This document shows positions 3,324-44,784 of a DNA stretch of 64,000 nt, one piece after another. The notes below the pieces were generated by a model that ran no database searches, was not told where the DNA came from, and saw only the letters and a program-made list of their open reading frames with translations. This DNA is from Chiridota heheva (taxonomy: Eukaryota > Echinodermata > Holothuroidea > Apodida > Chiridotidae): positions 427,501-491,500 of the forward strand of contig JAIGNY010003294.1 of the NCBI GenBank assembly GCA_020152595.1, written 5' to 3'. Made by a program: the position numbers and the translations under genes. The first letter of the stretch is position 1. Every line of letters starts with the position of its first letter.

Positions 3324-4364
3324 TAGAGCTGTGACCGTTTAACGTGTACTCGCTACACGCTCGCAAATCTTGTAAACGTTTACTAAATACTTCATTGCGA
3401 GTAATCGTTTTTCATACATTATAGGCCTAGTGTCTTGCCGTTGAAAATCAATATTCATGAATCAAATCACACACACATTCGGCTGACAAAATTCCAATCA
3501 ATGATTTTTTACACTCTAAACCCGATTAGCATAATCTTTTTTAAATGTGCGAATCACAAATGCGCAGTAATCACCAATGAATGGGGATATTATGCACTTT
3601 GATTTCGCCGAAATCTGAGTAATCTAACTTGTAAAATGCACCGCGAATGTGCAGCAGTAAACAGTGAAACTAACAATAGGCCTAGCGTTAGGCCATAAGG
3701 CTTTAAATCCCACGCAATCAAGGCCCGTTTCATCGACCAAAAAACACTTGAATCGTGACAATCAGTACATTTACATGTAAATATTACCTGATGAGTCAAA
3801 TAAATTTTGCAAGAAAGAAAAAATATTGCATTATAAATAAACAGAAAAAGGTTTTAACAAAGCTGAAATTCTGCATGCTTCGCAAAGATGGCGGCCATTT
3901 TTTCGAGAGAACTGATATTTCAGAACTTCCTGGTGGTGGCGTAGTTTTGAAATGTTTTACGGTGAGATTTATCATAGGCCTCAATATGCAAGATTTTCAC
4001 AGAACTTTGAAAGCTGTAGCGAATAGGACAAACAAGTTACGCGATGTTGAGTTTAAATGACATTGAAAGGAAGTTATCTGTTCTATCTTAACTGAATTTC
4101 CATTCATATTTTCCATAAAAATGATGATTTATACTGTAAAAGTAAATTTTTTACGATTTGGAAAGCAAAACTCAGCGTCTATTTGGGCAATGCAGTCAGT
4201 ACTTTTGCCATACTAGTTGCGCGATTTTTTTACTTCGCCTCGTAGTTTTGGAACAATTTTGGTGTATTTCCGAAAATTACGGTACTAAACTCGTGTACAC
4301 GATACACGCTCGCTTTTTTTGGCGTGTACACGTTTACTAAAATCCCTAAACGTTCACAGCTCTA
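3324..4364. mobile_element. Non-autonomous hAT element, family A copy 1
   Basis: The 1041-bp insert has terminal inverted repeats beginning TAGAGCTGTGA (3324) and ending TCACAGCTCTA (4364). It is flanked by a perfect 8-bp duplication, GACGATAG, at 3316-3323 and 4365-4372. An 8-bp duplication with TAGRGCTGTG-type ends is diagnostic of hAT transposons. Subterminal CGTGTAC and TTTACTAA words recur at both ends, as hAT transposases use for binding. No transposase ORF is present, so mobilisation would need an autonomous relative. It lies inside the RT region of an older LINE and is therefore younger than it. A diverged sibling is at 49021-50029. Confidence 0.92.
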
Positions 4365-5100
4365 GACGATAGATAGGATATGAGCCACTGTTGGATGTCA
4401 CCAGCAATTCCAAACTGAGAGTGAAGTGTGTTGAGGAGAGGGCTGTGGTTTCCGGTATCAAATGCCGCACTCAGATCCAAAACTAACAAGAGGGTGCATC
4501 GTTGTTTGTCCATATTTAAGATAATATCGCTGTGAATTTTAATCAAGGCTGTCTCTGTCTGTCTGTGGAGTACTTATTTCTGTAAGCAGACTGTTAATCT
4601 GGAAGGGGAGCATGTTGTGAGAAATGAGAAACAATCTGGTCAACTACCGCCCGCTCGACCAATTTTGATACGAAGGTCAAATTACTCACAGGTCTGTAGT
4701 TGGAAAATGAACACTCCAATCCTGATTTTTTTGGCAGAGGGACAATAGTTGCATTTTACCAACTATTAGGTACTGCACCATCTCGGAGAGACAAATTCAC
4801 CATTGTTGTAAGCACAGGGAGTAGCGATTCAAGACAATCCTTAAGCAGCCATGTTGGTATTGGATCGAGGGTACAACTCGAAGTTTTAGAAAATATAACC
4901 AGTTTGCGAACATCAAGTGCAGATAATGGTGTGAAGGAATCAAAAATCACATCAACGCAGTGGAGTTCATCGCAGAGTTCAAAACTGTGAACTTCAACAG
5001 TGTCAATATTGTCTTTAATCTTTTGAATTTTAGAACCAAAGAAATTTCTAAAGTCATTAGCAATTTCTTTCGCATTACCATGTAGTGGGAAAGAATCCAC
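4346..5100 (-). pseudogene. LINE reverse transcriptase relic, N-terminal part
   Basis: The upstream half of the LINE at 1985-5113. Residues encoded at 4756-5100 cover the pre-RT linker (FFGSKIQKIKDNID, CTLDPIPTWLLKDCLESLLP). About 4373-4546 holds LLVLDLSAAFDTGNHSPLL and WLISYLSSR of the fingers/palm. Stops and a frame change between about 4550 and 4750 break it, and the hAT insertion ends it at 4364. Confidence 0.75.
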
Positions 5101-5113
5101 ATGTCTTATGTCT

Positions 5114-6690
5114 TAAATCTTATAGCAATATATATTAGCGTTAATTGGCAGCACTTATTAAAGTGGTCCTACCATGGAGGTCGGAATTTACGTTAAATAT
5201 ATTGATTAGGTTAATTGGCTTTTCAATATTTCGAGGAGAGATTTCAGGATTTAATTTTTCCTGAGTTTTTGGAATAAAATGTATTTCGGAATAAAATATG
5301 AAATCTGAGTAAGTTGATCTTGTTTATACTTGTATTTATTTGTTCGGTTTGTATTTTGTTTTGGGCCGCGCTTGCAATAAGAGCAGGGACCATGCTTTCC
5401 CATTTTTCAAGTAGTAATTTTTGGTGTTGGAAGTTTAGTTTAATTTAAATTATGAACGCAAACCTCTGTGATAGGCCTTTAAATGGAGGATATTTCTTCG
5501 CCCAGGAAATTTTCCATGATGCTAAGCGATGGCGTGCGGCATAACAAAGAACTGAACGAAATTAGTTTGAACAGAAACAGCAACCAGCACAATGAAGTCA
5601 ATGTATTAAGATAATATAGAAAAGAGAACAAACAAGTTTTTAGGGGAATTTATTTTAGAACGAAAAAAAAGATGCACGGTGTAGGCCTAAAGCCCGGGGG
5701 TCCTTCAAGAAGTAGAATAGTTTTTCTTCCCTCTGCTTCATTACAACAACGGGACTAGAATAAACTAAAACATGTTCCGTGAAATGGATACAATTTTACA
5801 TAATTTGTATGACTATCATCAGGAATATGTCACTTTATATCTAAAATAATTCGTGTCTGTTATAATTATCGAAGTAACGGCTTTGATCACTTGCCTTGTT
5901 CACTAGTCTCAAAATGTAAATGAACTACGATATTTGGGGAAGAATTTCGGAAGTATTTGGAGCACCGTTTCATTTAATTCTAATCACAATTGTGCCCAGT
6001 TTTTAGTCCCCGTTACAGGTAACAATTGTACCAAAAAATATTGTACTTGTTAAGAACATTATCAAAGTTCAAATTCACTCAAACGTAACATCACCGCGAG
6101 ATTCTCCGCTATCTCGCAGTGATTAGGGGCTATTGTATTCGGCACACAATAAATGCAAGTTAATGAGCTCTCTTCCTCAGGGCATTTCGGTGTTTTAATT
6201 CATACGTGACTTAACGGAAAAACGATTTCTTTTGTTCGGCGCTGCGGCTTAAAAAAGAAGACAAAATCCTGCATATCTCGAGTTGGCTATGCCTCTAATG
6301 AGAATTAAGATAACAAAAACAGAGATTCTTATTAACACAAACCTATTTCATGGCACAGCTGGCATAAAAGAGACATAATGAATGCAGCCTCAAGTATCCG
6401 TTTGTCCCTACTCAGCACGAACAAATTTTTTACAAATGTTGGCAAAGATGGATTTTTTTTTTTTTATCAGCATTTTTTTTTATCTATCTACAATTTACAT
6501 TTATGTGTGCATGTACATATTAACAGAGACAATATTAAATTTTTACATAGTGAAATGCAGAATTTATACATACATTTAAAACGATATAAAAAGTGACTAA
6601 GGGAAACACATAGGAAGTTCATTAGAACTTATGAGTTAAAGTTAAACAAAAAACATTGAAATATAAATGTTGGCAACATATTAAAGAGGG
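5114..6690. other. No gene seen
   Basis: Unique-looking A/T-rich sequence between repeats. It has short ORFs only, none with recognisable similarity. A T-rich stretch with ORFs at 6378-6596 is low complexity. Confidence 0.4.
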
Positions 6691-7350
6691 TAGACAGCAG
6701 GGTTTGCGTTAATAGCAAATGTTTTGTAGGTCTATATTACGCTAAGGCTGAGATTTTTTACGACACATGTTGTACCTGCATTGTAAGATTTAGATGCCAA
6801 AGTTTTTCATTAACTTAAATGAAAATCATGAAAATCTTACCTATCTTGATGCGATTAAAAAATTTATTTCACACACAAATGATTTTGAATTACTCAGAAA
6901 TAAAAGAAAATTACACAACTATGAGACTAACGGCCGAATGATTCAATATGTCTGTACAAGTACTGTACATAGACACATATAGGCTAGTATATATATTCAG
7001 TATGTATGCACACTGTACGTTAAAAGTTTTGATGTTGTTTTGAATGTAGGTTGCCAATTGTCAACGATGTCATTCAACTTTCATTCACTTTAGCGAGGCA
7101 GGCCTACGCAAATGTATTTGTATGTGTTAACAATACTTGCAAGCTTTACCAGTGCGCAGTATCCTGTACAGTATGCAGTGCCCTGTACATACGACGGCAG
7201 ATTTACAAAATACCCCCAAAATTAAGGGCTGTTCACCACACAAAACATTCTAACGCAAGCTCTGGTAGACGGTGTTTTGGCTTATTAAATACTTGCCATA
7301 ACGTTTGTGAAATGCCTGATTTTCATGAACTTTGGGACAAAAATTGACTG
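6690..7350 (+). repeat. Dispersed repeat family R1, copy 1
   Basis: This segment matches, in inverted orientation and with many substitutions, 55540-56520. Shared blocks include TTACGACACA.GTTGTACCTG, AATGAAAATCATGAA.ATCTTACCT, GTACATA.ACACATATAGGCTAGT and TGCAGTGCCCTGTAC.TAC. The ORFs in both copies are not conserved in frame, so it looks like an old non-coding interspersed repeat. No terminal repeats or target duplications were recognised. Confidence 0.6.
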
Positions 7351-15139: not shown

Positions 15140-15796
15140 TAGGTACTACATGAAATTGATTTTTTCTTTTGCATACAGTAATTTGCAGTTTCTACATGTG
15201 TATGTATAGATCTTGTGTTACACTTGATGCTTGGTGTGTATGTATGCACTTTGTTAATAAAGTTTTGTTTGAATATAACATAAACAGGACTATGAGGCAC
15301 ACTTCTATGCAAGCAGTATGTGTGTTTACAGTTCATTAACTTACTGTGCACTGTATGCAAACTTTTTTGTTTTCAAGTTTAATATTCATTGTATGCTTTC
15401 AATTTTAATTTGAAGAATGATAATATTTTCTTTCCTTTCTCTCTTAATTGTAAACAATGAAATTACTGCTCATATTTTATGTTTAGCTGTTGATTTTTCT
15501 TTATTAAAAAGCATATTTAAGTACAACTGTAGAAAGATAAGCATAATCCTAACATCTTTAACCATCATTTTCATTATGAATTGTTAAAAGTGCTGACAAA
15601 AATGGCTTCCATAATAAGATACAAAATCCATTTTGAAATTAGAACATGTTACTTTTTCTTCAATTTGAACAGTGTATCTTGCAAAATCGTTAAAGCTGTT
15701 TTTATGAGGATAATTGGGCTAAAACGTGTACAGCACATAATTTCCCCAAAAAGAGAAACACTGTTAACTTATATGTAAGGTTATTTCTTGTATGCT

Positions 15797-16093
15797 ATAG
15801 AAATATTTAATACACAGGAACCTACCAGCCTTGAAAATCAAAATTTTCATGTCTTTTTAAAACTACTGTATGTAATGAACGAAAGAAAAGATTGTAGTTG
15901 TTGTTGATATTAAAGGTATGTGAAATAATTGTTATAATCATTTTTAAATATCTATAGTTGTTATCAATAAAGTTGATTAATAACATTCTATACTGCAGAA
16001 ATAAGATGCTATAAAAATCTTTAATACACAGGAATCTACCAACCTTGGAAATTAAAATTTCCATGTCTTTCTAAAACTACTGTATGTAATGGT
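15797..16093 (+). repeat. Partial direct repeat, about 211-bp period
   Basis: About 85 bp at 15797-15880 recur at 16009-16093 with a few changes (shared TTTAATACACAGGAA.CTACC and AAAACTACTGTATGTAATG). The interval between them is A/T-rich. It is a short tandem duplication without coding content. Confidence 0.7.
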
Positions 16094-16386
16094 GTTAACC
16101 TGGTCAAAAATCAACTTTTTGTAGAGGTCTATTTTCAAATGCTGTTTTTCATGTTAAAACAAATAAATGTTTGAAAGAAAAAAAGCATTTTCAAGTACAC
16201 CTAAGTTTGTTGTCTGCATTGTGATTGGTTGAGAGAAGACACACCTCTAATTTTATTACCCCATGATGTATATGTTGTCAAGTTGAAGAAATGTATACAT
16301 ATCAAGGTTGCTAGTGTGGCGTTAACGAATAAGAATGTTGATACTGATAAATTGATTGTTTCTATGTTTTATTAGTGATATCTAGC

Positions 16387-19300
16387 AGTAGTAAGAGGAC
16401 ACTATACAGACCCGGCTGGGTCTGTATAGTGTCCTCGCCGGGTCTGTATAGTGTCCTCAGTGTCCGGGGCTGTATAGTGTCCTCGCCGGGTCTGTATAGT
16501 GACCTCTCCAGGTCTGTATGGTGACCTCAGTGTCCGGGCCTGTATAGTGACCTCTCCGGGTCTGTATAGTGTCCTCAGTGTCCGGGTCTGTATAGTGTCC
16601 TCGCCGGGTCTGTATAGTGACCTCTCCGGGTCTGTATAGTGACCTCAGTGTCCGGGCCTGTATAGTGACCTCTCCGGGTCTGTATAGTGACCTCTCCGGG
16701 TCTGTATAGTGACCTCAGTGTCCGGGCCTGTATAGTGATCTCTCCGGGCCTGTATAGTGACCCCTGAGCTTTTCCCTCTGGGTCATCGGCTTGGTCTGGG
16801 TCTGTATAGTGGCCCTGTGAGATTCATCTGGGTCATCGGATTGGTCGGGGGTCTGTATAGTGGCCCCTAAGCTTTTCCCTGTCCGGGCCTGTATAGCGGC
16901 CCCTGAGCTTTTCCCTGTGTGGGCCTGTATAGCGGCCCCTGAGATTTTTCCCTCTGGGTCATCGGATTGCATCACAAGATAGTCTGAATTGTTTTGCAGA
17001 GTCTTTTTAACGAGGTGTATAGCTTTCCATGATTGGGTGTGTCAGGTGGGGGGTATCATGGTACTCATTGTCGCCCATTTCACAACAATACACCCTGATA
17101 ATCTGTTGATTAGATTTGTCAAAGAGTTTAAACTGTACAAGTAATATAGATAAATCACGATTATCAATAATATTGGGATAATATCGTCACAATTTACCAA
17201 GTCACCTCATTCGAGAAACAGGAAACTTGTCATGTTTGAGACCATGTCTTTGAAAATAGGTAAGATTTGAGCGGCGATATTTTTCAAACGGTGTGATTCG
17301 AGCGGCGATATTTTTTTAAACGGTGTGATTTGAAAACGATTTTTTTTTCACAACCCATTGACTTTGCACAGGGAGCAAAATTTGAGCGACAATATTTTGA
17401 AAACGTGACTGATTTCAGAAGACATTTTTTTCTGACACTCCTCATTTGAGAAACAATTTTTTCGGAAACTCAACATTTGAGAAACAATTTTTCTGAAACA
17501 CTGTCATTTAAGGCAGTTTTTTGCTCAACTGTTTTTCATTTGAGAGGACAAAGCTGGCATCTAACGGGGAATGACAGGACAGAACTACACTTTAATGTGA
17601 AATACGGGGGTCTACGGGGACTTCATCGTGGGAATAATCGGACAAAACTACATTTTCAACGAGAAAAATGGCGTCAACGGGAGAATGACACGACAGAACT
17701 GCGCTTTAATGTGAAATACGTGGGGTCTACGGAGGCTTCATCGTGGGAATAATCGGACGAAACTACGTTTTTAACGAGAAAAATGGCGTCAACGGGAGAA
17801 TGACACGACAGAACTGCGCGTTGGGGGGTTCATCGTGGGAATAATTGGACAAAACTACGTTTTTAACGGAAAAAATGGCGTCAACGGGGAGAATGACAGG
17901 ACAGAACTGCACTTTAATGCGAAATACGGGGGTCTACGGGGGCTTCATTGCGGGACTTCGGACAGAACTTCGTTTTTTTAAAAAGGGGGTAATTCCAAAG
18001 CACGCCCCCTAAACTGTTTTCCTCAAACATTACATTTGAGCATGCACTTTTTGAAAACCATTGTGAAATTCTAATAAGGGCGTCAAATTTAAGAAGGCAT
18101 TTTGATGTGTACTTCAGTTTTTGAAATTCCTTGAGCGCTCTTTTTTCTCAACCATTCATTTTTAAGAGGCTAATTTGAAGGAAAAAAGTGGTAAAAAACG
18201 AGGGAAATGGGCTAAAAAGCAAGGGACTTTATTGCGTACACAATGACGTTTTTTTTAACCCATTTCCCTCGTTTTTACCACTTTTTTTCTTCAAATCAGC
18301 CTCTTAAAAATGAATGGTTGAGAAAAAAGAGCGCTCAAGGAATTTCAAAAACTGAAGTACACATCAAAATGCCTTCTCAAATTTGACGCCCTAATTGGAA
18401 TTTCAAAAATAGTTTTCAAAAAGTGCATGCTCAAATGTAATGTTTGAGGAAAACAGTTTAGGACGGGAGAGAAGGGGGAGGCGTGCTTTGGAATTACCCC
18501 CTTTTTAAAAAACCGAAGTTCTGTCCGAAGTCCCGCGATGAAGCCCCCGTAGACCCCCGTATTTCGCATTAAAGTGCAGTTCTGTCCTGTCATTCTCCCG
18601 TTGACGCCATTTTTTCCGTTAAAAACGTAGTTTAGTCCGATTATTTCCACGATGAAGCCCCCGTAGACCCCCGTATTTCACATTAAAGTGCAGTTCTGCC
18701 CTGTCATTCCCCGTTAGATGCCAGCTTTGTCCTCTCAAATGAAAAACAGTTGAGCAAAAAAACTGCCTCAAATGACAGTGTTTCAGAAAAATTGTTTCTC
18801 AAATGATGAGTTTCCGAAAAAATTGTTTCTCAAATGAGGAGTTTCAGAAAAAAATGTCTTCTGAAATCAGTCACGTTTTCAAAATAATGTCGCTCAAATT
18901 TTGCTCCCTGTGCAAAGTCAATGGGTTATGAAAATAAAATTTCGTTTCAAATCACACCGTTTAAAAAAATATCGCCGCTCGAATCACACCGTTTGAAAAA
19001 TATCGCCGCTCAAATCTTACCTATTTTCAAAGACATGGTCTCAAACATGACAAGTTTCCTGTTTCTCGAATGAGGTGACTTGATAAATTGTGACGATATT
19101 ATCCTAATATTATTGATAATCGTGATTTATCTATATTACTTGTACAGTTTAAACTCTTCGACAAATCTAATCAACAGATTATCAGGGTGTATTGTTGTGA
19201 AATGGGCGACAATGAGTACCATGATACCCCCCACCTGACACACCCAATCATGGAAAGCTATACACCTCGTTAAAAGGACTCTGCAAAACAATTCAGACTA

Positions 19301-19805
19301 TCTTGTGATGCAATCCGATGACCCAGAGGGAAAAATCTCAGGGGCCGCTATACAGGCCCGGACAGGGAAAAGCTCAGGGGCCGCTATACAGGCCCGGACA
19401 GGGAAAAGCTCAGGGGCCACTATACAGACCCCCGACCAATCCGATGACCCAGATGAATCTCACAGGGCCACTATACAGACCCAGACCAAACCGATGACCC
19501 AGAGGGAAAAGCTTAGGGGTCACTATACAGGCCCGGAGAGGACACTATACAGGCCCGGAGAGATCACTATACAGGCCCGGACACTGAGGTCACTATACAG
19601 ACCCGGAGAGGTCACTATACAGGCCCGGACACTGAGGTCACTATACAGACCCGGACACTGGGGTCACTATACAGACCCGGAGAGGTCACTATACAGACCC
19701 GGACACTGAGGTCACTATACAGACCCGGACACTGAGGATACTATACAGACCCAGCGAGGACACTATACAGACCCGGCCGGGTCTGTATAGTGTCCTCTTA
19801 CTACT
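16387..19805. mobile_element. 3.4-kb palindromic Polinton/adintovirus-like terminal derivative
   Basis: Two arms of about 1.7 kb are inverted copies of each other. They meet at about 18222-18252 around a non-palindromic centre of about 30 bp. The outer ends read AGTAGTAAGAGGACAC (16387) and GTGTCCTCTTACTACT (19805). They are flanked by a 6-bp direct duplication, TCTAGC (16381-16386 and 19806-19811). Six-bp duplications and long inverted repeats starting AG are Polinton/Maverick traits. Each arm has an outer array of about 22-bp units (CTGTATAGTGWCCTC plus GGGT), then CTGAGATTTTTCCCTC and TCATCGGATTGC blocks, also present at 32399-33340, then TTTGAGCGGCGATATTTTT repeats, then about 110-bp repeats around 17540-17990. 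The left arm has more repeat units than the right. No ORF is protein-like. See 32399-34247 for the coding relative. Confidence 0.8.
16395..16975 (+). repeat. 22-bp subterminal minisatellite, left arm
   Basis: About 20 tandem units around CTGTATAGTGACCTCTCCGG or GTCCTCGCCGG variants, grading into longer units with TGAGATTTTTCCCTCTGGGT. This is the outermost part of the palindromic element's left arm. The mirror array is at 19309-19797. The ORFs across both arrays (with SGAAIQARTGK repeats) are translations of the repeat. Confidence 0.85.
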
Positions 19806-20289
19806 TCTAGCGATTTCAGAATTACAATGTGCAGTTGACTGGAGCCATTTCATAAAAGAGTATTGTAAGCCCACGAAGAATTGGGCTGGGATTCCTAGCA
19901 CACGTAGGTTCAGGTAGGGCTATGAGACTTATTCCTACAGTTAGGACAAATTCATGAGTAACCAAATTACTACTAGCCTTAAGCAAACATAATGACACAA
20001 TTCAATTCAAATTTATTTTTATCTTGGAGGGAACCTAAACAACACAAAATATAACGTGTATGGAAAACAATTGCTTTATTCCCTTGCTTTATTCTATGCA
20101 TAGCATACATCGGCTCATTCGTTAAAGTTACTTTACCGTCCAATATCCCATATGGACGAAACGGTCTGGAAAGCTATAGTGTGCATAGGAAAAAACCATA
20201 ACCTTCGTAAAGGCTGCAGATCAGCAAACAACAGCAATAACACAATGTCAGCATACAGAAACGGGTTAAAGTGAAAGAAATTACGGCCA

Positions 20290-23640: not shown

Positions 23641-23879
23641 TTCTTGTAAATTAACTAGTGTTATTTTCATATGGAAAACGTTTGAGTTCTTGCTCCGTTG
23701 AAAGGTGACCCCTCCTATACTGTACCTCTTGCCAAGGCAAATGTTTTCAATTGCCAATTGGACGAAAAGGTAAAAGCCTATTTGAAAATGATTGTGTGAA
23801 AGAGGGGTAGAAGGGGGGGGGGGGAGCATTAATAAGTACATTCTGCCATTCATCCATCAAAGTAAAATCGTACAGGTGT

Positions 23880-24493
23880 TTATGGAGATAGTTTTGCTAT
23901 TGCTTCTCTTACCTTGGGAAACAAACGCTGTACTTCTTTCCACTGTTTCATCTTAAACATGCGACCTTTACAAGTCGGTATAGACTCTTCTTTTATGAAG
24001 AGCTGAACATCTACATAAATATTGTTTTTGAAACGTTTTACACACATCATGACTCCATCACCCAGTTGCCACTTGTTTGATTCTATGTCCTCCTTAGAGG
24101 ATGAAGTGATCAATTTGGAAATTTCTTTGTTCACCTTTGGGTCAACTGTTTCATCGCTTCCCACTGCGTCGTTTTAAGTGCAATTCCTTTTTTTTGTTGG
24201 AAAATATTTCACCCCAAACTGCTAAAATGATCTCAGATGAATGTCCTTCATAACAAATCACAGAATTGAATTCATCGTTTCCCAGATAGTAACGATACGA
24301 TCCATTCGGTTGCAAACGTTGTTTAGTATCCGGAAGCACAACCACATTTTCATCTTTTTTTTTCTGGTGTGTCCTTCTTTTCTGGTTCGTCTTCCTTTTG
24401 TTGGATTTCACTGGATCCTTCCACAAACACAAGTTCAGAATCAAATAAATTAGGATAAATCCCTGCTTCATCTGCGCCATACAAAAATGCCAT
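23880..24493 (-). pseudogene. Tandem PC4-like ssDNA-binding protein gene, frame-broken
   Basis: From an ATG at 24493 the minus strand encodes an acidic start (MAFLYGADEAGIYPNLFDS), a charged linker, and two PC4-like domains. The first has RYYLGNDEFNSVICYEG and then TTQWEAMKQL; the second (23880-24164) has KWQLGDGVMMCVKRFKNNIY and then MKQWKEVQRLFPKVREAI. PC4/p15 domains bind single-stranded DNA and act in transcription or replication. The order of short beta strands plus a final helix with QW/KQW matches the family. Three frame changes are needed: in the A9 tract at about 24354-24362, in the A8 tract at about 24188-24195, and near 24145-24165. Two lie in A runs, so assembly errors are possible. 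Tandem PC4 copies are unusual for a host coactivator; a viral or transposon origin is an inference. Confidence 0.5.
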
Positions 24494-24539
24494 GATTCTT
24501 TAAGGGTAAATTCAAACTTGCTTTCCAACGTTTAGAGGT

Positions 24540-24875
24540 TCAATTTAGGTAGTACCGCCTAATCTCGTTTTTAGCTGAAAGTGCTACCTTTGAGGAGCAC
24601 GGGCTTGTTTTTAAATTATTTTCCCAAACAACCTTGTTTATGTAGTTATTTTCATGGAAACTGTGTTTGTTAACAACACCCAAACTCGATTTTTTATTTT
24701 TGTGAACTGTCCTACCTTCACAATACTCAAAACATTTCTGTTTCCATGGTCTCTTCTTCCCTGACAACCTTACTATTTTCAAAACTGTATCTAAATTTTT
24801 AGCTCTTTTTCTTTCGGTTTTCTTCAATCTTGATAAAAAAATTCTCTTTGCTTGTGAAGTTTTTAATTGATGTTT
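24540..24875 (-). other. Unrecognised basic reading frame
   Basis: An open minus frame (stop-to-stop about 24875-24540) without an ATG near its start, rich in Lys/Arg (RLKKTERKRAKNLDTVLKI, KKRPWKQKCFEY) and ending KNEIRRYYLN. It lies just upstream of the PC4-like gene in the same orientation. No domain is recognised. It could be a further broken piece of the same element or a chance ORF. Confidence 0.2.
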
Positions 24876-25030
24876 ATTCTCTTTTTTTCATCTCTTCATT
24901 CGATTTTGATTTAAACTTTTTTAATCTTTACGTTTGTTTTTGATTTCATATTTCTTTTTATCTCTTCATTCGTTTTTAGTTTATATTTATTCCTTTTTAT
25001 CTTTTCATTTTTTTAAATGTATTTATATAT

Positions 25031-25255
<225 letters not shown>

Positions 25256-25404
25256 ATTTCTTCATTCTTTTTTAAATATATTTTACTATTTTTTTTTTTG
25301 TTTGTTTTGCATATACTATTTATATAAGTATACTTCCCCCCCTCCCCCCAGACATTTGTTTTCCTTAAGAATACCTTTCTCTCTAAATGCCTTCTATTGC
25401 CATG

Positions 25405-25557
25405 TGACGTCAGCTCATGAATATTCCAACACTTAAACGCTAGTGTTTAACCTTTTTCTAGGCCTGTATGACGTTATTGATCTGTTTCTCCCTTCCCGAA
25501 TGACCTCATGTCGCTTTGGACATCACTGACGTCATGCTGACGTTAAATATGACGTCA
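25405..25557. promoter_or_regulatory. Cluster of five CRE-like sites
   Basis: TGACGTCA occurs at 25405-25412, 25527-25534 and 25550-25557, and TGACGTTA at 25469-25476 and 25538-25545, all within 153 bp. The cluster lies 485-640 bp upstream of the sulfotransferase start codon. Three perfect CREB/ATF palindromes this close are far above chance expectation. It could be the gene's promoter or enhancer, although a probable 5'UTR acceptor at 26024 means the true first exon may lie further upstream. Confidence 0.45.
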
Positions 25558-25779
25558 CTGCCTGGAGTGTCCTCAAAGTGGTTCTACCTCGGGTGTCATC
25601 ATTTCTACTCATTTTGCTATATTTTAAGAAACGGCTGTATGAGGTCTATAACCTCATGTGGTTTTACAGGTTTAAAAGCCATGTTGATTAAGACAGTTAC
25701 ATGCTTTCTGATAGAGAAGGTAGAGTTGGAAAAAATTTAACATAAAATGAAACAAAAATGGTAATATTTTGTTAAATTT

Positions 25780-25880
25780 ATTGAAAATTTGGGTGAAAGT
25801 TGGGACCATTACTCACAAAATGAAGAAAAATTTCCGAAAATTAAAGAAACCTTTCTGAAAATTGAAGGAGATTTCCCGAT
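25780..25880 (+). repeat. A/T-rich AAATTTCC array
   Basis: A short array of units like GAAAATTAAAGAAACCTTTC, ending in AGAAGCAACGTTTCATAGAA then TTTACCAGTGCAATTTTCCC. The same final box follows the array at 61180-61480. The array runs directly into the presumed 5'UTR region of the sulfotransferase gene. Confidence 0.5.
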
Positions 25881-26041
25881 TAGAAGCAACGTTTCATAGA
25901 AACTTTATTTACCAGTGCAATTTTCCCACAAGATATCAAAAAAGTTCCTTCGCAGTTCAGTTTGTCTCTGCACCCCTTCCTTACGAGATATGTTTGACTA
26001 ATATTTTTTTCTTCATTATTTCAGTTCCTGAAATTATAATA

Positions 26042-26352
26042 ATGGCGGGAAAAGGACAGGCCCAAAATGGTATGAATTTTGGAGTCGAGATTAACCGTGT
26101 CTTCGTATGGATACACCCACGTTCGGTTTCCACTGCATTAACAAAATGCATCGCCCAAGTCCCTGGTGTACAGATTTGGCATGAACCTTATACCAGTTGC
26201 TACTACAACAAGATATTCACAACAAAGATGGATAGATTTCCGTTGATGATGCCGATACTGCAACAGTTTGCCGACGCTCGAAAGGAACTGGATGACGCTA
26301 AAGGCAAGCACATGTTGGATGGTGGCAACTTATTGCATGGAGACACATACAA
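26042..26352 (+). CDS. Sulfotransferase-like protein, exon 1
   Basis: This exon encodes residues 1-103 of a 318-aa cytosolic-type P-loop sulfotransferase. The family transfers sulfate from PAPS; many invertebrate members are annotated misleadingly as branched-chain aminotransferase-like. After a short N-terminus the strand-loop VFVWIHPRSVSTALTKCI (20-37) holds the 5'-phosphosulfate loop HPRSVSTAL. VQIWHEPYTS follows (about residues 42-51), and the exon ends in HGDTY. The ATG at 26042 follows a good acceptor (TATTTCAG at 26024), so upstream in-frame codons are treated as intronic or untranslated. The donor AA|GTGAGT leaves phase 2, matching exon 2. No signal peptide or membrane segment is visible. 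The acceptor substrate cannot be predicted. Confidence 0.85.
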
Positions 26353-26769
26353 GTGAGTATCTTAAATTTTTGATGGTGCAATTATAATCTTGGGCAAACC
26401 TGTTGGAACAGTATGGACACGTAAATTTCGGCCATGTGGCATTACTGAAATTGGTTTCCGGAAATTAGCGCTTTAGATTCGAAACGGTCAATTAACAGAT
26501 TGACCGCGGAATTGTGAACTCCCTGTGAACTCTGGAACTTGTCTAATATACACGAGGAATCATCGAAATAATTGTATTTCATTTCTCTTAAACAATTAAT
26601 TTACGGTCATTCCGGTTGTGTTAAAGACCCAAATACAATGTGGTATTACCAAACAATAAAGAGATAGCAATATTATATCAAGTTGAGCTATCAAACAGAT
26701 ACCATAATATGCAAACCTTGACGATACTTACATACCTAGTGGCGTGGCATGAAAGAGGTATAGAAAAGC

Positions 26770-30990: not shown

Positions 30991-31715
30991 AGGCTGATTT
31001 CTAGGGGACCCAGGGTGGCTGAGACACCATTCTTATCAATTGACCTGACTTTAGGGTATCAGCCCTCCTCCCAAAATATTGAAATCTCTCTGAAATCAAT
31101 TGATTTTGAGGGTGGATTAGTTAGGGCATTTGAAAGTAGCAACATATAGGCCTAGAAGTTTCTTCTTCAAAATAAAGACTTTGACTTATCCTTAAGTAGT
31201 TTAGGGCATAAGTCAGAAGGTTATCATTGTTTGGGAAGATAAAACAAACGTTACCCGGGCACATTGTGTTTTGACCCTCTCTCTGTGAGCCCCTTGTTAT
31301 GTTTTTAGGAAATCATCCCTGCCCACGGCGTATTCACGGCCCGTAGTGCATAGGCCTATATCACCAAAAAAGCATTTTTTTTCCACGATGATCTACTCCA
31401 ACTCAATGGCAAGATACAGCTTTATCGCTGACCGTACGTGTACCCACGCCGAATTGTATATGTAGAAGACTAATAAAGCGGCTGACTAAATTCTAACACA
31501 ATGATGTAATAGAGATTCGCCCATTTGGGAAATAATGATTTTTTTCTCCCAAAAGGCGGACTGTTATCTCGAGTAACAGAACTAAGATAGATTCTAGAAT
31601 AGTAAGCTTTAGCTTTATATTACGGCTAAGATATTGATTACATACATTTTTTGTAAAACAATGGCATTTTTTTGGACAAAAATCAATAACCGTGTTTTTT
31701 CTCCCCTTTTCAAAG

Positions 31716-32246
31716 GTGACATTTCAGCATACATTCTTGATTCGGGACCCTAGGAAGCTTGCTGTGTCATCGAGAAGGCTATTCAAAAAGATGTTTCGTG
31801 ACGACTCTGACGATTTCGACATGTACTTCGATCATTGTTACAAAGGTTGGGAAGAGCTCTCTGACGACACCTTATACGACCTCTACCAACATGTTCGAAA
31901 ATCCACTGGCATCGAACCGGCCATAATTGATGCTGACGATCTAGTGACCTATCCCGAAAAGATACTTCCAAAATACTTCGAAAGAATTGGATTAAAGTAC
32001 AACCCTAAGTATCTGAAGTGGGATCCAAAGATAGATATTGTGAAGACCTATTACGCGAGCCAAGATCAGCTTTTTAGGGGTTTCAAGGAGGGCGTTTACA
32101 ACACAGCTTTTTGCTCTTCTGAGTTTATAAAGAACACGAGTGGTCCGCCAAAATGGAAAGATCTGCATTCTAGTGAGGTGAAGTACGCCAGTGATTTCGC
32201 GGATGGGTATAAGGTGATGTACGACAACAGGATAAAACCCTTTTAA
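31716..32246 (+). CDS. Sulfotransferase-like protein, last exon
   Basis: Residues 143-318 and the stop codon (TAA, 32244-32246). The acceptor CTTTTCAAAG joins in phase 0. It opens with FLIRDPRKLAVSSRRLF (149-165), the 3'-phosphate-binding segment whose Arg and Ser residues contact PAPS. Acidic helices, ADDLVTYPEKILPKYFERIG (about 220-239) and KWKDL follow, ending RIKPF. The segments up to the stop show no gap or break, so the gene appears intact. Introns 1 (3.1 kb) and 2 (2.1 kb) carry a LINE with a MITE, and a minisatellite, respectively. No clean AATAAA is seen directly after the stop. Confidence 0.87.
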   Translation: MTFQHTFLIRDPRKLAVSSRRLFKKMFRDDSDDFDMYFDHCYKGWEELSDDTLYDLYQHVRKSTGIEPAIIDADDLVTYPEKILPKYFERIGLKYNPKYLKWDPKIDIVKTYYASQDQLFRGFKEGVYNTAFCSSEFIKNTSGPPKWKDLHSSEVKYASDFADGYKVMYDNRIKPF

Positions 32247-32409
32247 ATGCAAACATATTTGATAACGGTTTATGGTTATTCTTCTTTATTGCATACACAT
32301 AAATATAAACCACATCATTTAAAGGGAGAACAAAAATGTTATATAATAGATTTTTGTTAATGAAAAAGCAACAAAAGGGCCCGGTGAATGGGTAGTATAG
32401 TAGTTGGAG

Positions 32410-33340
32410 GAAACTATACAGGTAGTGACTAATCACTACCTGTATAGTGGCCCCTGAGATTTTCCGGGTCATCGGATTGCGTCACAAGATATCATCGACG
32501 ACGGAGCTTCTGATTGGTCACTACCTGTATAGCGGCCTCTGAGATTTTCCCTCTAAGTCATCGGATTGCGTCACAAGATATTCTCGATTGTTCTAGAGGC
32601 CTTTAAACAAAGTGTATAGTTCATTTGCAATGCTAACTTCTGACTGGTCACTACCTGTATAGTGATCTCTGAGATTTTCCAGGTCATCGGATTGCGTCAC
32701 AAAATATTCTCGACTGTTCCATAGAATCTTTTGCTGGTTTCTGATTTGTCACTATCTGTATAGCGGCCCCTGAGATTTTTCAGGTCATCGGATTGCGTCA
32801 CAAGATATTCTCGATTGTCCCACAGAGTCCTTTTAACGAAGTGTATACTTCATTTGCATTGATAACGTCTGATTGGTCACTACCTGTATAGTGACCCCTG
32901 AGATTTTTTCACCTGGGTCATCGGATTGCGTCACAAGATATTCTCGACGACGGAGCTTCTGATTGGTCGGGGTCTGTATAGTGGCCCCTGAGATTTTTTC
33001 ATCTGGGTTATCGGATTGCCGTCACAAGATATTTTTGATTGTTCCGCAGAGTCCTTTTAACGAAGTGTATGGTTCATTTGCAATGCAGACTTCTGATTGG
33101 TCACTACCTGTATAGCGACCTCTGAGATTTTCTATCTGGGTCATCATATTGCCATCACAGGATATTCTCGATTGTTCCGCAGAATCCTTTGCTGGCTTCT
33201 GATTGGTCACTACCTGTATAGTGACCCCTGAGATTTTTTCATCTAGGTCATCAGATTGCCATCACAAGATATTCTCGATTGTTCCATAAAGTCCTTTTAA
33301 TGAGGTGTATAGCTTTTCTTGACTGGGTGTGCCAGGTGAT
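32410..33340 (+). repeat. Subterminal repeat array of the Polinton-like element
   Basis: Eight copies of a CTGTATAG.G.CC.CTGAGA core at roughly 32440, 32526, 32655, 32756, 32885, 32966, 33109 and 33213. Spacing alternates between about 80-105 and 129-143 bp because the longer units also include TCCTTTTAACGAAGTGTATA. A small perfect palindrome, ACTATACAGGTAGTGA with its inverse, sits at 32413-32449. Confidence 0.85.
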
Positions 33341-33394
33341 TGTAAAGTACCTCAAACGTAAAATTATAAAATTTGTTTTTGTGATTTCTCTCAA

Positions 33395-33403
33395 TATATA
33401 AAG
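33395..33403 (+). promoter_or_regulatory. TATA box upstream of the packaging-ATPase fragment
   Basis: TATATAAAG lies 31 bp before the ATPase start codon, at the boundary between the terminal repeats and the first internal ORF. That suits a compact viral-type promoter. Assignment is by motif and position. Confidence 0.4.
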
Positions 33404-33433
33404 ACATGTCGTACATGATTAGGATCATTTACG

Positions 33434-33788
33434 ATGACGTCGCATAACGACACGTTAGACGGGACGTTGAAACACCCATTTACCTGTATCATTGCAGGTC
33501 CAACGGGATGTGGAAAGACCCGTTGGGTTAGAACATTGTTGGAACGTCGTACAGAATTCATTAACTCACCACCTGAATGCATCTATTGGTTCTATGCCGA
33601 AAACCAACCCGATCATGAAGCGCTGAAGCGAGTTTTACCTCACGTGGAAACTATTGGAAGGCCTACCCACCGAAGAAGATCTGAAACGTTTGCGATCCAA
33701 GACGTAATAATATCATTGTCATTGATGATCTCATGAGTTTATTGAATCCCATTGTAATGACACTGTTTACCAAAGGCAGTCATCAGTG
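33434..33788 (+). pseudogene. FtsK/A32-type DNA-packaging ATPase fragment, frame-broken
   Basis: The first frame (33434-33736) encodes a P-loop ATPase start: a strand then the Walker A motif AGPTGCGKT, followed by ECIYWFYAENQPDH. After a frameshift near 33655 and another near 33702, the plus strand gives NNIIVIDDLMSLL with Walker B aspartates, ending at TGA 33786-33788. The order Walker A - YWFY - IIVIDD is that of the packaging ATPases of Polintons and adintoviruses, which load the linear genome into the capsid. The C-terminal half is missing: sequence jumps directly to capsid-related fragments. No product can be functional. A host AAA ATPase is unlikely given the context. Confidence 0.65.
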
Positions 33789-33789
33789 A

Positions 33790-34194
33790 CTCCACACCCA
33801 CGTATCTGTACAGAGCGATGATTGAAACGCTGTTCAACTATTTACGACAGCACTACCTTTTGTGAAACGTGGTGCTGCGAGCTTGGCAAAAGAAGCCGGT
33901 AAAGAAGCGTTGACCACTGGTGCAGGAATTCTGGAAGACGTGTTGGCCGGACAAAGCGTGAAACAAGCTGCATCCCGTCGAGCGAAAGCGGCTGGACAAC
34001 GTTCGACACGCAAAGCCATGGGTTCCGCTAAAGCGCGATTGCAACAGCTTGGTACCGGTACAAGGAACCCACTTCGTCAGCGAAAAGCCAAGATAACAAA
34101 GCCGAAGGTTCCCTTAAGTGATGCTCGTTTGAAACAGTATTTATGTCAACGACCGTCGTTGAATATGAATATATATGAGAAATTAATCACATGA
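33790..34194 (+). pseudogene. Capsid/core-protein-like fragments (pX-like basic protein)
   Basis: A short fragment at 33790-33858 encodes TPTYLYRAMIETLFNYL, resembling the YRA-IE-LL motif of proteins seen in Polinton-type gene clusters. It runs without a gap into a basic ORF (to TGA 34194) with FVKRGAASLAKEAGKEAL, then AGILEDVLAGQS, then AASRRAKAAGQRSTRKA. A small amphipathic N-terminus followed by an Arg/Lys-rich tail is typical of the minor core proteins (adenovirus pX-like) of adintoviruses. There is no ATG at the fusion; the 5' end is lost and two genes are fused by deletion. The identification rests on composition, motif and neighbourhood. Confidence 0.5.
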
Positions 34195-34247
34195 CTGAAA
34201 TGCTGGCTTTTGATTGGCCACTACTTGTATAGTGACCCCTTACTACT

Positions 34248-36327: not shown

Positions 36328-40442
<4,115 letters not shown>

Positions 40443-40589
40443 CCAGCCTGCAGTCTGCAGTCTGTCTGCAAAATAGTAGGACACATATATATGTTACTAT
40501 ATGAACCAAGAGCCGAATTTATATTCCTCGTATGTAGAGGCTGACCTGCCAAGGGGGCTTCTAATCAAAGTAACTCAATATTCAAATTT

Positions 40590-41665: not shown

Positions 41666-44545
<2,880 letters not shown>

Positions 44546-44784
44546 ATATGGAAATGACCCCCTTTCCTCTCCACCCCACCCCACCCTCCCACCCCCAATC
44601 CTCCCCTTGCCCGTACTTCCCTTGCCCCTACTCCCCTTTCCCCTGCACCTTCCCCTTTCCCCCGATCAGTTCAACCCACTTGAAAATATTTAATCATTGC
44701 ATGACCAGTTCGATCCAGTTCACACTCTCCGAAATCTGCAGATTGCATTTGTCAGTTTGTAAACTTGCAGTGCAAGCTGCATAG

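Follow-up and report, generated by a model that had tools for sequence, protein, structure and literature searches.

The inverted repeat at positions 16387–19805 of the window (the whole 64,000-nucleotide stretch of Chiridota heheva DNA analysed here) belongs to a large repeat family. Our preferred interpretation, to which we assign a probability of about 0.58, is that the family consists of non-autonomous, foldback-type derivatives of a Polinton/Maverick-like element and that the window copy most likely derives from a long-armed parent through internal deletion. As judged from its sequence, the window element is real, Polinton-type in its ends and target duplication, non-autonomous and foldback in form.

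Self-BLAST, a repeat finder and direct reading of the bases all locate inverted arms in this interval (Table 1). Global alignment splits it at position 18233 into arms of 1847 and 1572 bp that agree at 1500 of 1540 columns (97.4%, in 19 blocks), a length and identity that exclude a chance origin. An earlier, sequence-only reading had called the palindrome near-perfect, which is accurate for the bases but not for the length, the right arm being ~275 bp shorter than the left. The same reading proposed a centre of ~30 bp, the termini AGTAGTAAG and CTTACTACT and a TCTAGC duplication; the innermost ungapped inverted pair (18048–18218 and 18251–18421) leaves 32 bp between the arms, and the termini and both TCTAGC copies are exactly as given. 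On the ruler used throughout, the left half of a longer family copy (C236), the left arm can be followed to arm position ~2907 and the right arm starts at ~2876. The outer parts of the arms are tandem arrays with units spaced 22 and 26 bp. No gene was recognised in the window copy, and in particular no type-B polymerase. The host flanks, ~2 kb on the left against ~2 kb on the right, have no mutual similarity on either strand, as expected of a single integrated unit rather than of one locus present twice and joined; with TCTAGC on both sides, this bears out the proposal that the palindrome was inserted as a unit. Two 86-bp direct copies that are 91% alike (15792–15877 and 16006–16091) lie directly to the left of the palindrome.

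Table 1. Features of the palindromic element, in window coordinates
Feature	Position	Strand	Basis
Left target duplication, TCTAGC	16381..16386	.	sequence
Left arm	16387..18218	+	repeat finder, C236 mapping
Left terminus AGTAGTAAG, fits (AGT)2 Maverick end motif	16387..16395	+	sequence; motif PMC8097293
Left-arm tandem array, 22/26-bp spacing, units with CTGTATAGTG, family D1	16403..16832	+	repeat finder
Single-copy centre, 32 bp	18219..18250	.	repeat finder, C236 mapping
Right arm, inverted copy	18251..19805	-	repeat finder, alignment
Right-arm tandem array, family D2	19490..19781	-	repeat finder
Right terminus CTTACTACT	19797..19805	-	sequence
Right target duplication, TCTAGC	19806..19811	.	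sequence

A search of the source genome (1.1 Gb in 3744 contigs) with one arm gave at least 199 arm matches, a lower bound from scoring the best 40 of 1308 candidates. Thirty loci were mapped (the window and two sets of 18 and 11 contigs), picked from the best arm matches and therefore biased toward long arms. Eight are arm-to-arm joins, four retain a piece of the parental centre and five carry a piece of polymerase; the other 13 are single-armed or have a two-arm structure that is unsettled within the stretch examined. Runs of N in two of the mapped stretches (L040 and L046) fall outside the elements located there. Individual copies show further rearrangement: C147 has three arm copies, and the arm join of C626 contains ~280 bp that read like a tRNA-derived SINE.

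The five longer copies (C236, C2997, C1812, C1631 and C3647) carry the polymerase fragment inward of the arm, at ruler positions ~6310–6715. Both long arms are visible in C236, C2997 and C1631 and reach ruler position ~4304, although the stretch examined for C1631 did not show its outer right end; for C1812 and C3647 it contains one arm each. The architecture of the long copies is one of ~4.3-kb inverted arms flanking a ~3-kb centre with a broken type-B polymerase gene. An extra spacer of ~810 bp is present in C2997, C1812 and C1631 and absent from C236, and a LINE sits within the right arm of C236. C2044 has a longer centre, its spacer pieces being separated by ~0.7 kb more sequence within a 900-bp stretch that ends short of the arms. 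In the centre of C1812, a minus-strand segment (L047 6129–6482) matches the Bcl-2 family weakly (PF00452, E 0.0023, below the cut-off) and has no match among PDB sequences.

When the polymerase pieces of the family are taken alone, three of six match PF03175 weakly (E 0.011, 0.025 and 0.089, all below the cut-off) and the Pfam scan gives no PF03175 match for the other three. The fragment is 95% identical at the DNA level, over 299 bp, to an open frame on C1273 (L052:2–3745, 1248 codons read) that matches PF03175 at 7.9e-18. These similarities suggest that it is related to type-B polymerases of the viral or organellar kind. The genome contains at least 151 matches to the polymerase protein (150 of 523 candidates scored). 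Among the matches listed at >80% identity, those at C236, C1631, C2997, C3647, C1812 and C1365 align from query residue 1 and the remainder start no earlier than residue 16; a single polymerase join is shared by the six loci, which therefore probably have one ancestor. For the 136-residue polymerase piece, a protein database search whose length limits exclude full polymerases was empty, and neither the viral contig scan nor PHROGs contained a relative.

The sequence-only reading had suggested a one-arm search of the genome for autonomous elements with the same terminus. Polymerase-bearing relatives with the same kind of arms were indeed recovered, but no complete element with the ends of the palindrome was found among the family copies examined, and the Pfam scan, which covered some of the ORF pieces of the longer copies, gave no integrase. 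The C1273 locus was considered as an autonomous parent and rejected. Though its polymerase is closely related, there is no AGTAGTAAG end in the 9 kb read there; with low-complexity sequence masked, its matches to the C236 ruler are two centre pieces and none in the arms; and its homology with the 23.9–25.6 kb piece of the window ends at a different border. That window piece (23862–25605) is part of another polymerase-bearing element and is 87–89% identical to the PC4-domain gene region of C1273, where a minus-strand PC4 gene (L052 4357–5016; PF02229, E 1.1e-19) adjoins the polymerase frame. The 2 kb examined on C426 contain only additional sequence of this PC4-gene region.

The left and right breakpoints of the eight arm-to-arm joins differ by ~31 ruler bases in the window, ~487 in C626, ~1007 in C413, ~1031 in C147, ~1117 in C2605, ~2481 in C647, ~3020 in C1943 and ~3512 in C187. 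The window join is thus the most symmetric of the eight. With uniform independent breakpoints, however, a value as small as 31 among eight has P = 0.11, so the tight join is no proof of a snap-back, and by the same figure a folding mechanism keeps its place among the candidates. Four other copies (C2538, C882, C2288 and C3123) have lost most of the centre and keep the piece beside the inverted arm. Because the joins of 8 of 30 loci are scattered and 4 of 30 retain parental centre, internal deletion is simpler than one snap-back per copy. As a general rule the latter is not supported, given that the shortened copies have the parental centre piece in common and the remaining breakpoints are dispersed.

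For the window copy itself, the simplest and most likely origin is internal deletion in a parent with long arms, with snap-back second. The sequence-only reading had favoured the latter, with one end mirrored and the product integrated as a unit; in such an event a protein-primed strand would have turned back ~31 bp onto its own complement. The tight centre of 31–32 bp would suit such an event, as would a type-B polymerase of viral or organellar kind in the family. So would a segment of C2997 (ruler ~4309–5219) that is present in both orientations there and single in C236, as though the sequence of one end had been transferred to the opposite end; the comparison suggests at least one episode of end-to-end copying or conversion, or else the loss of one copy from C236. 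Against this, parents with ~4.3-kb arms exist, so that deletion would yield the same product, the seven remaining joins are not tight and the four shortened copies retain parental centre. Taken together with the modest P value for one tight join among eight, these observations make a snap-back origin of the window copy possible but rather unlikely.

A second element in the window (32399–34247) also bears on the origin of the long arms. It begins with AGTAGTTGG, contains similar tandem units and terminates in CTTACTACT. It is asymmetric: its ends have only ~37 bp in common, with an aligned core of 23 bp, and no 6-bp duplication was found at them. An ORF at 33826–34194 lies 53 bp before its right end; its five relatives (E 4.7e-36 to 2.3e-23) are unnamed, it has no Pfam match, and it may resemble Polinton proteins. 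If this element mirrors the full one, short terminal repeats would be the original state and the long arms derived, which would favour end-onto-end copying and, to that extent, the snap-back account. Other features of the window include an exon-like ORF at 25859–26356 with a weak sulfotransferase match (PF19798, E 0.072), an exon-like ORF at 31638–32246 with no domain match, and long TA-type microsatellites within listed ORFs at 25017–25446, 37564–38126, 40035–40504 and 43622–44693.

Under the internal-deletion model, the parent would have had ~4.3-kb arms around a ~3-kb centre with a broken polymerase gene, and its very long arms probably came from copying one end onto the other. Internal deletion, possibly at a hairpin, would then most likely have produced the window copy, removing that centre together with the inner stretch of each arm and bringing the two arms into direct contact. 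We infer that the polymerase of a full element copies the derivative as linear DNA from its ends, that single strands may pair end to end, by which both ends would stay alike, and that a Polinton integrase would insert the product through a 6-bp staggered cut. It is reasonable to suppose that this integrase acts in trans.

In most of the copies tested, the two arms are each other's closest relatives. A tree of 35 arm blocks includes seven copies in which exactly two arms contain the block, and in six of these the arms are sisters, with support of 98/92 or better in a tree whose bootstrap had not settled. For C882 the sister relationship may be trivial, since its arms could represent one arm in two haplotypes; leaving that copy out, the count is five of six. 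The exception is C626, where the arms are not sisters, and the three C147 arms group weakly. Mean arm divergence is 2.8% within copies as against 5.9% for random pairing, and when the 14 arms were paired at random there were never more than five reciprocal pairs, none of 5000 shuffles reaching six. The two ends were therefore made alike before, at or after insertion. Several processes could each contribute: homogenisation while the ends are paired in replication, formation of a new mirror copy, post-insertion conversion, and polishing of the assembly.

The assignment to the Polinton/Maverick group comes in part from the ends and the target duplication. Vertebrate Mavericks have been picked by the combination of (AGT)2//(ACT)2 or (AG)3//(CT)3 ends with a 6-bp duplication (PMC8097293); AGTAGTAAG...CTTACTACT fits (AGT)2//(ACT)2 and the duplication has the same length, so the proposal of Polinton-type ends agrees with the published motif. 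Intact vertebrate elements in that study have terminal repeats of 46–1447 bp (PMC8097293), and the arms here (~1.6–1.85 kb in the window and ~4.3 kb in the longer copies) are outside this range, which describes one set and is not a strict criterion. The expectation that other copies would have different 6-bp duplications was confirmed: they are perfect and differ from one another in six of nine two-ended family copies (the window, C2538, C2997, C413, C187 and C2605), and in C236 five of the six bases agree. The remaining two, C882 (L037) and a 249-bp copy on C3647, have inverted flanks, and their mirror image extends into the flanks (on C3647 within L041 4648–5174) at ~94–98% identity, which looks like a haplotype mis-join at the palindrome or a true inverted duplication.

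Like Polintons/Mavericks (polintoviruses, adintoviruses), then, the family has (AGT)2//(ACT)2 ends, 6-bp duplications and, in its longer members, a type-B polymerase fragment. Unlike them, the window copy has no recognised gene and kilobase arms compared with the 46–1447 bp of intact vertebrate elements (PMC8097293), and integrase and capsid genes are not tied to the palindrome family in the sequences examined. The long inverted arms with inner tandem repeats and the copies made of arms only are shared with the foldback types Galileo, of the P superfamily (PMC3573991), and Tetris, and arm length varies strongly in Galileo as well (PMC3573991). An alternative reading is that the family is a foldback-like cut-and-paste DNA transposon of another superfamily that makes 6-bp duplications and captured a polymerase fragment. 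Arms of this kind have been described as a convergent trait, the first known copies of Galileo consisted only of long repeats and earned it the name Foldback-like (PMC3573991), and the lack of an integrase tied to the family in the sequences examined would suit this scheme. We nevertheless consider it improbable: both the ends and the duplication length match the Maverick motif (PMC8097293), the polymerase fragment occupies the same place in five copies, and Galileo has 7-bp duplications (PMC3573991), whereas this family has 6-bp duplications, Polinton-type ends and a polymerase fragment in its longer copies.

That two haplotypes or loci were fused at a repeat during assembly is very improbable for the window locus, where the flanks are unrelated yet share TCTAGC and where same-kind ends with other perfect duplications recur at five more two-ended loci, although the mirror image that enters the flanks at C882 and the 249-bp C3647 copy calls for caution at those two.

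Incomplete particles of adenovirus contain snap-back DNA, whose two ends are mirror images because one has taken the place of its counterpart. Similarly, the Towne and AD169 strains of HCMV carry at one end an inverted duplicate of the opposite end in place of the original sequence (PMC2885757). Those are viral genomes in culture, whereas the copies described here are inserted in a host and a one-sided origin is only a candidate. In a collection of papers that excludes subscription titles and Repbase-type records, and as far as titles and the beginnings of abstracts show, we found no account of Polintons stripped down to their ends.

The broader proposition that copy-back defective genomes of a protein-primed element recur in the germ line and integrate in trans, and that Polintons generate kilobase palindromes in this way, is one we regard as doubtful; if true, the copy-back reading would provide an equivalent, in DNA, of the defective interfering genomes known from viruses. 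Long palindromes are regarded as fragile sites (PMC7999016), and this family supplies the host genome with them. The gradient from polymerase-bearing copies to pure palindromes also offers a means of testing how the ends of a linear, protein-primed element are copied and kept alike.
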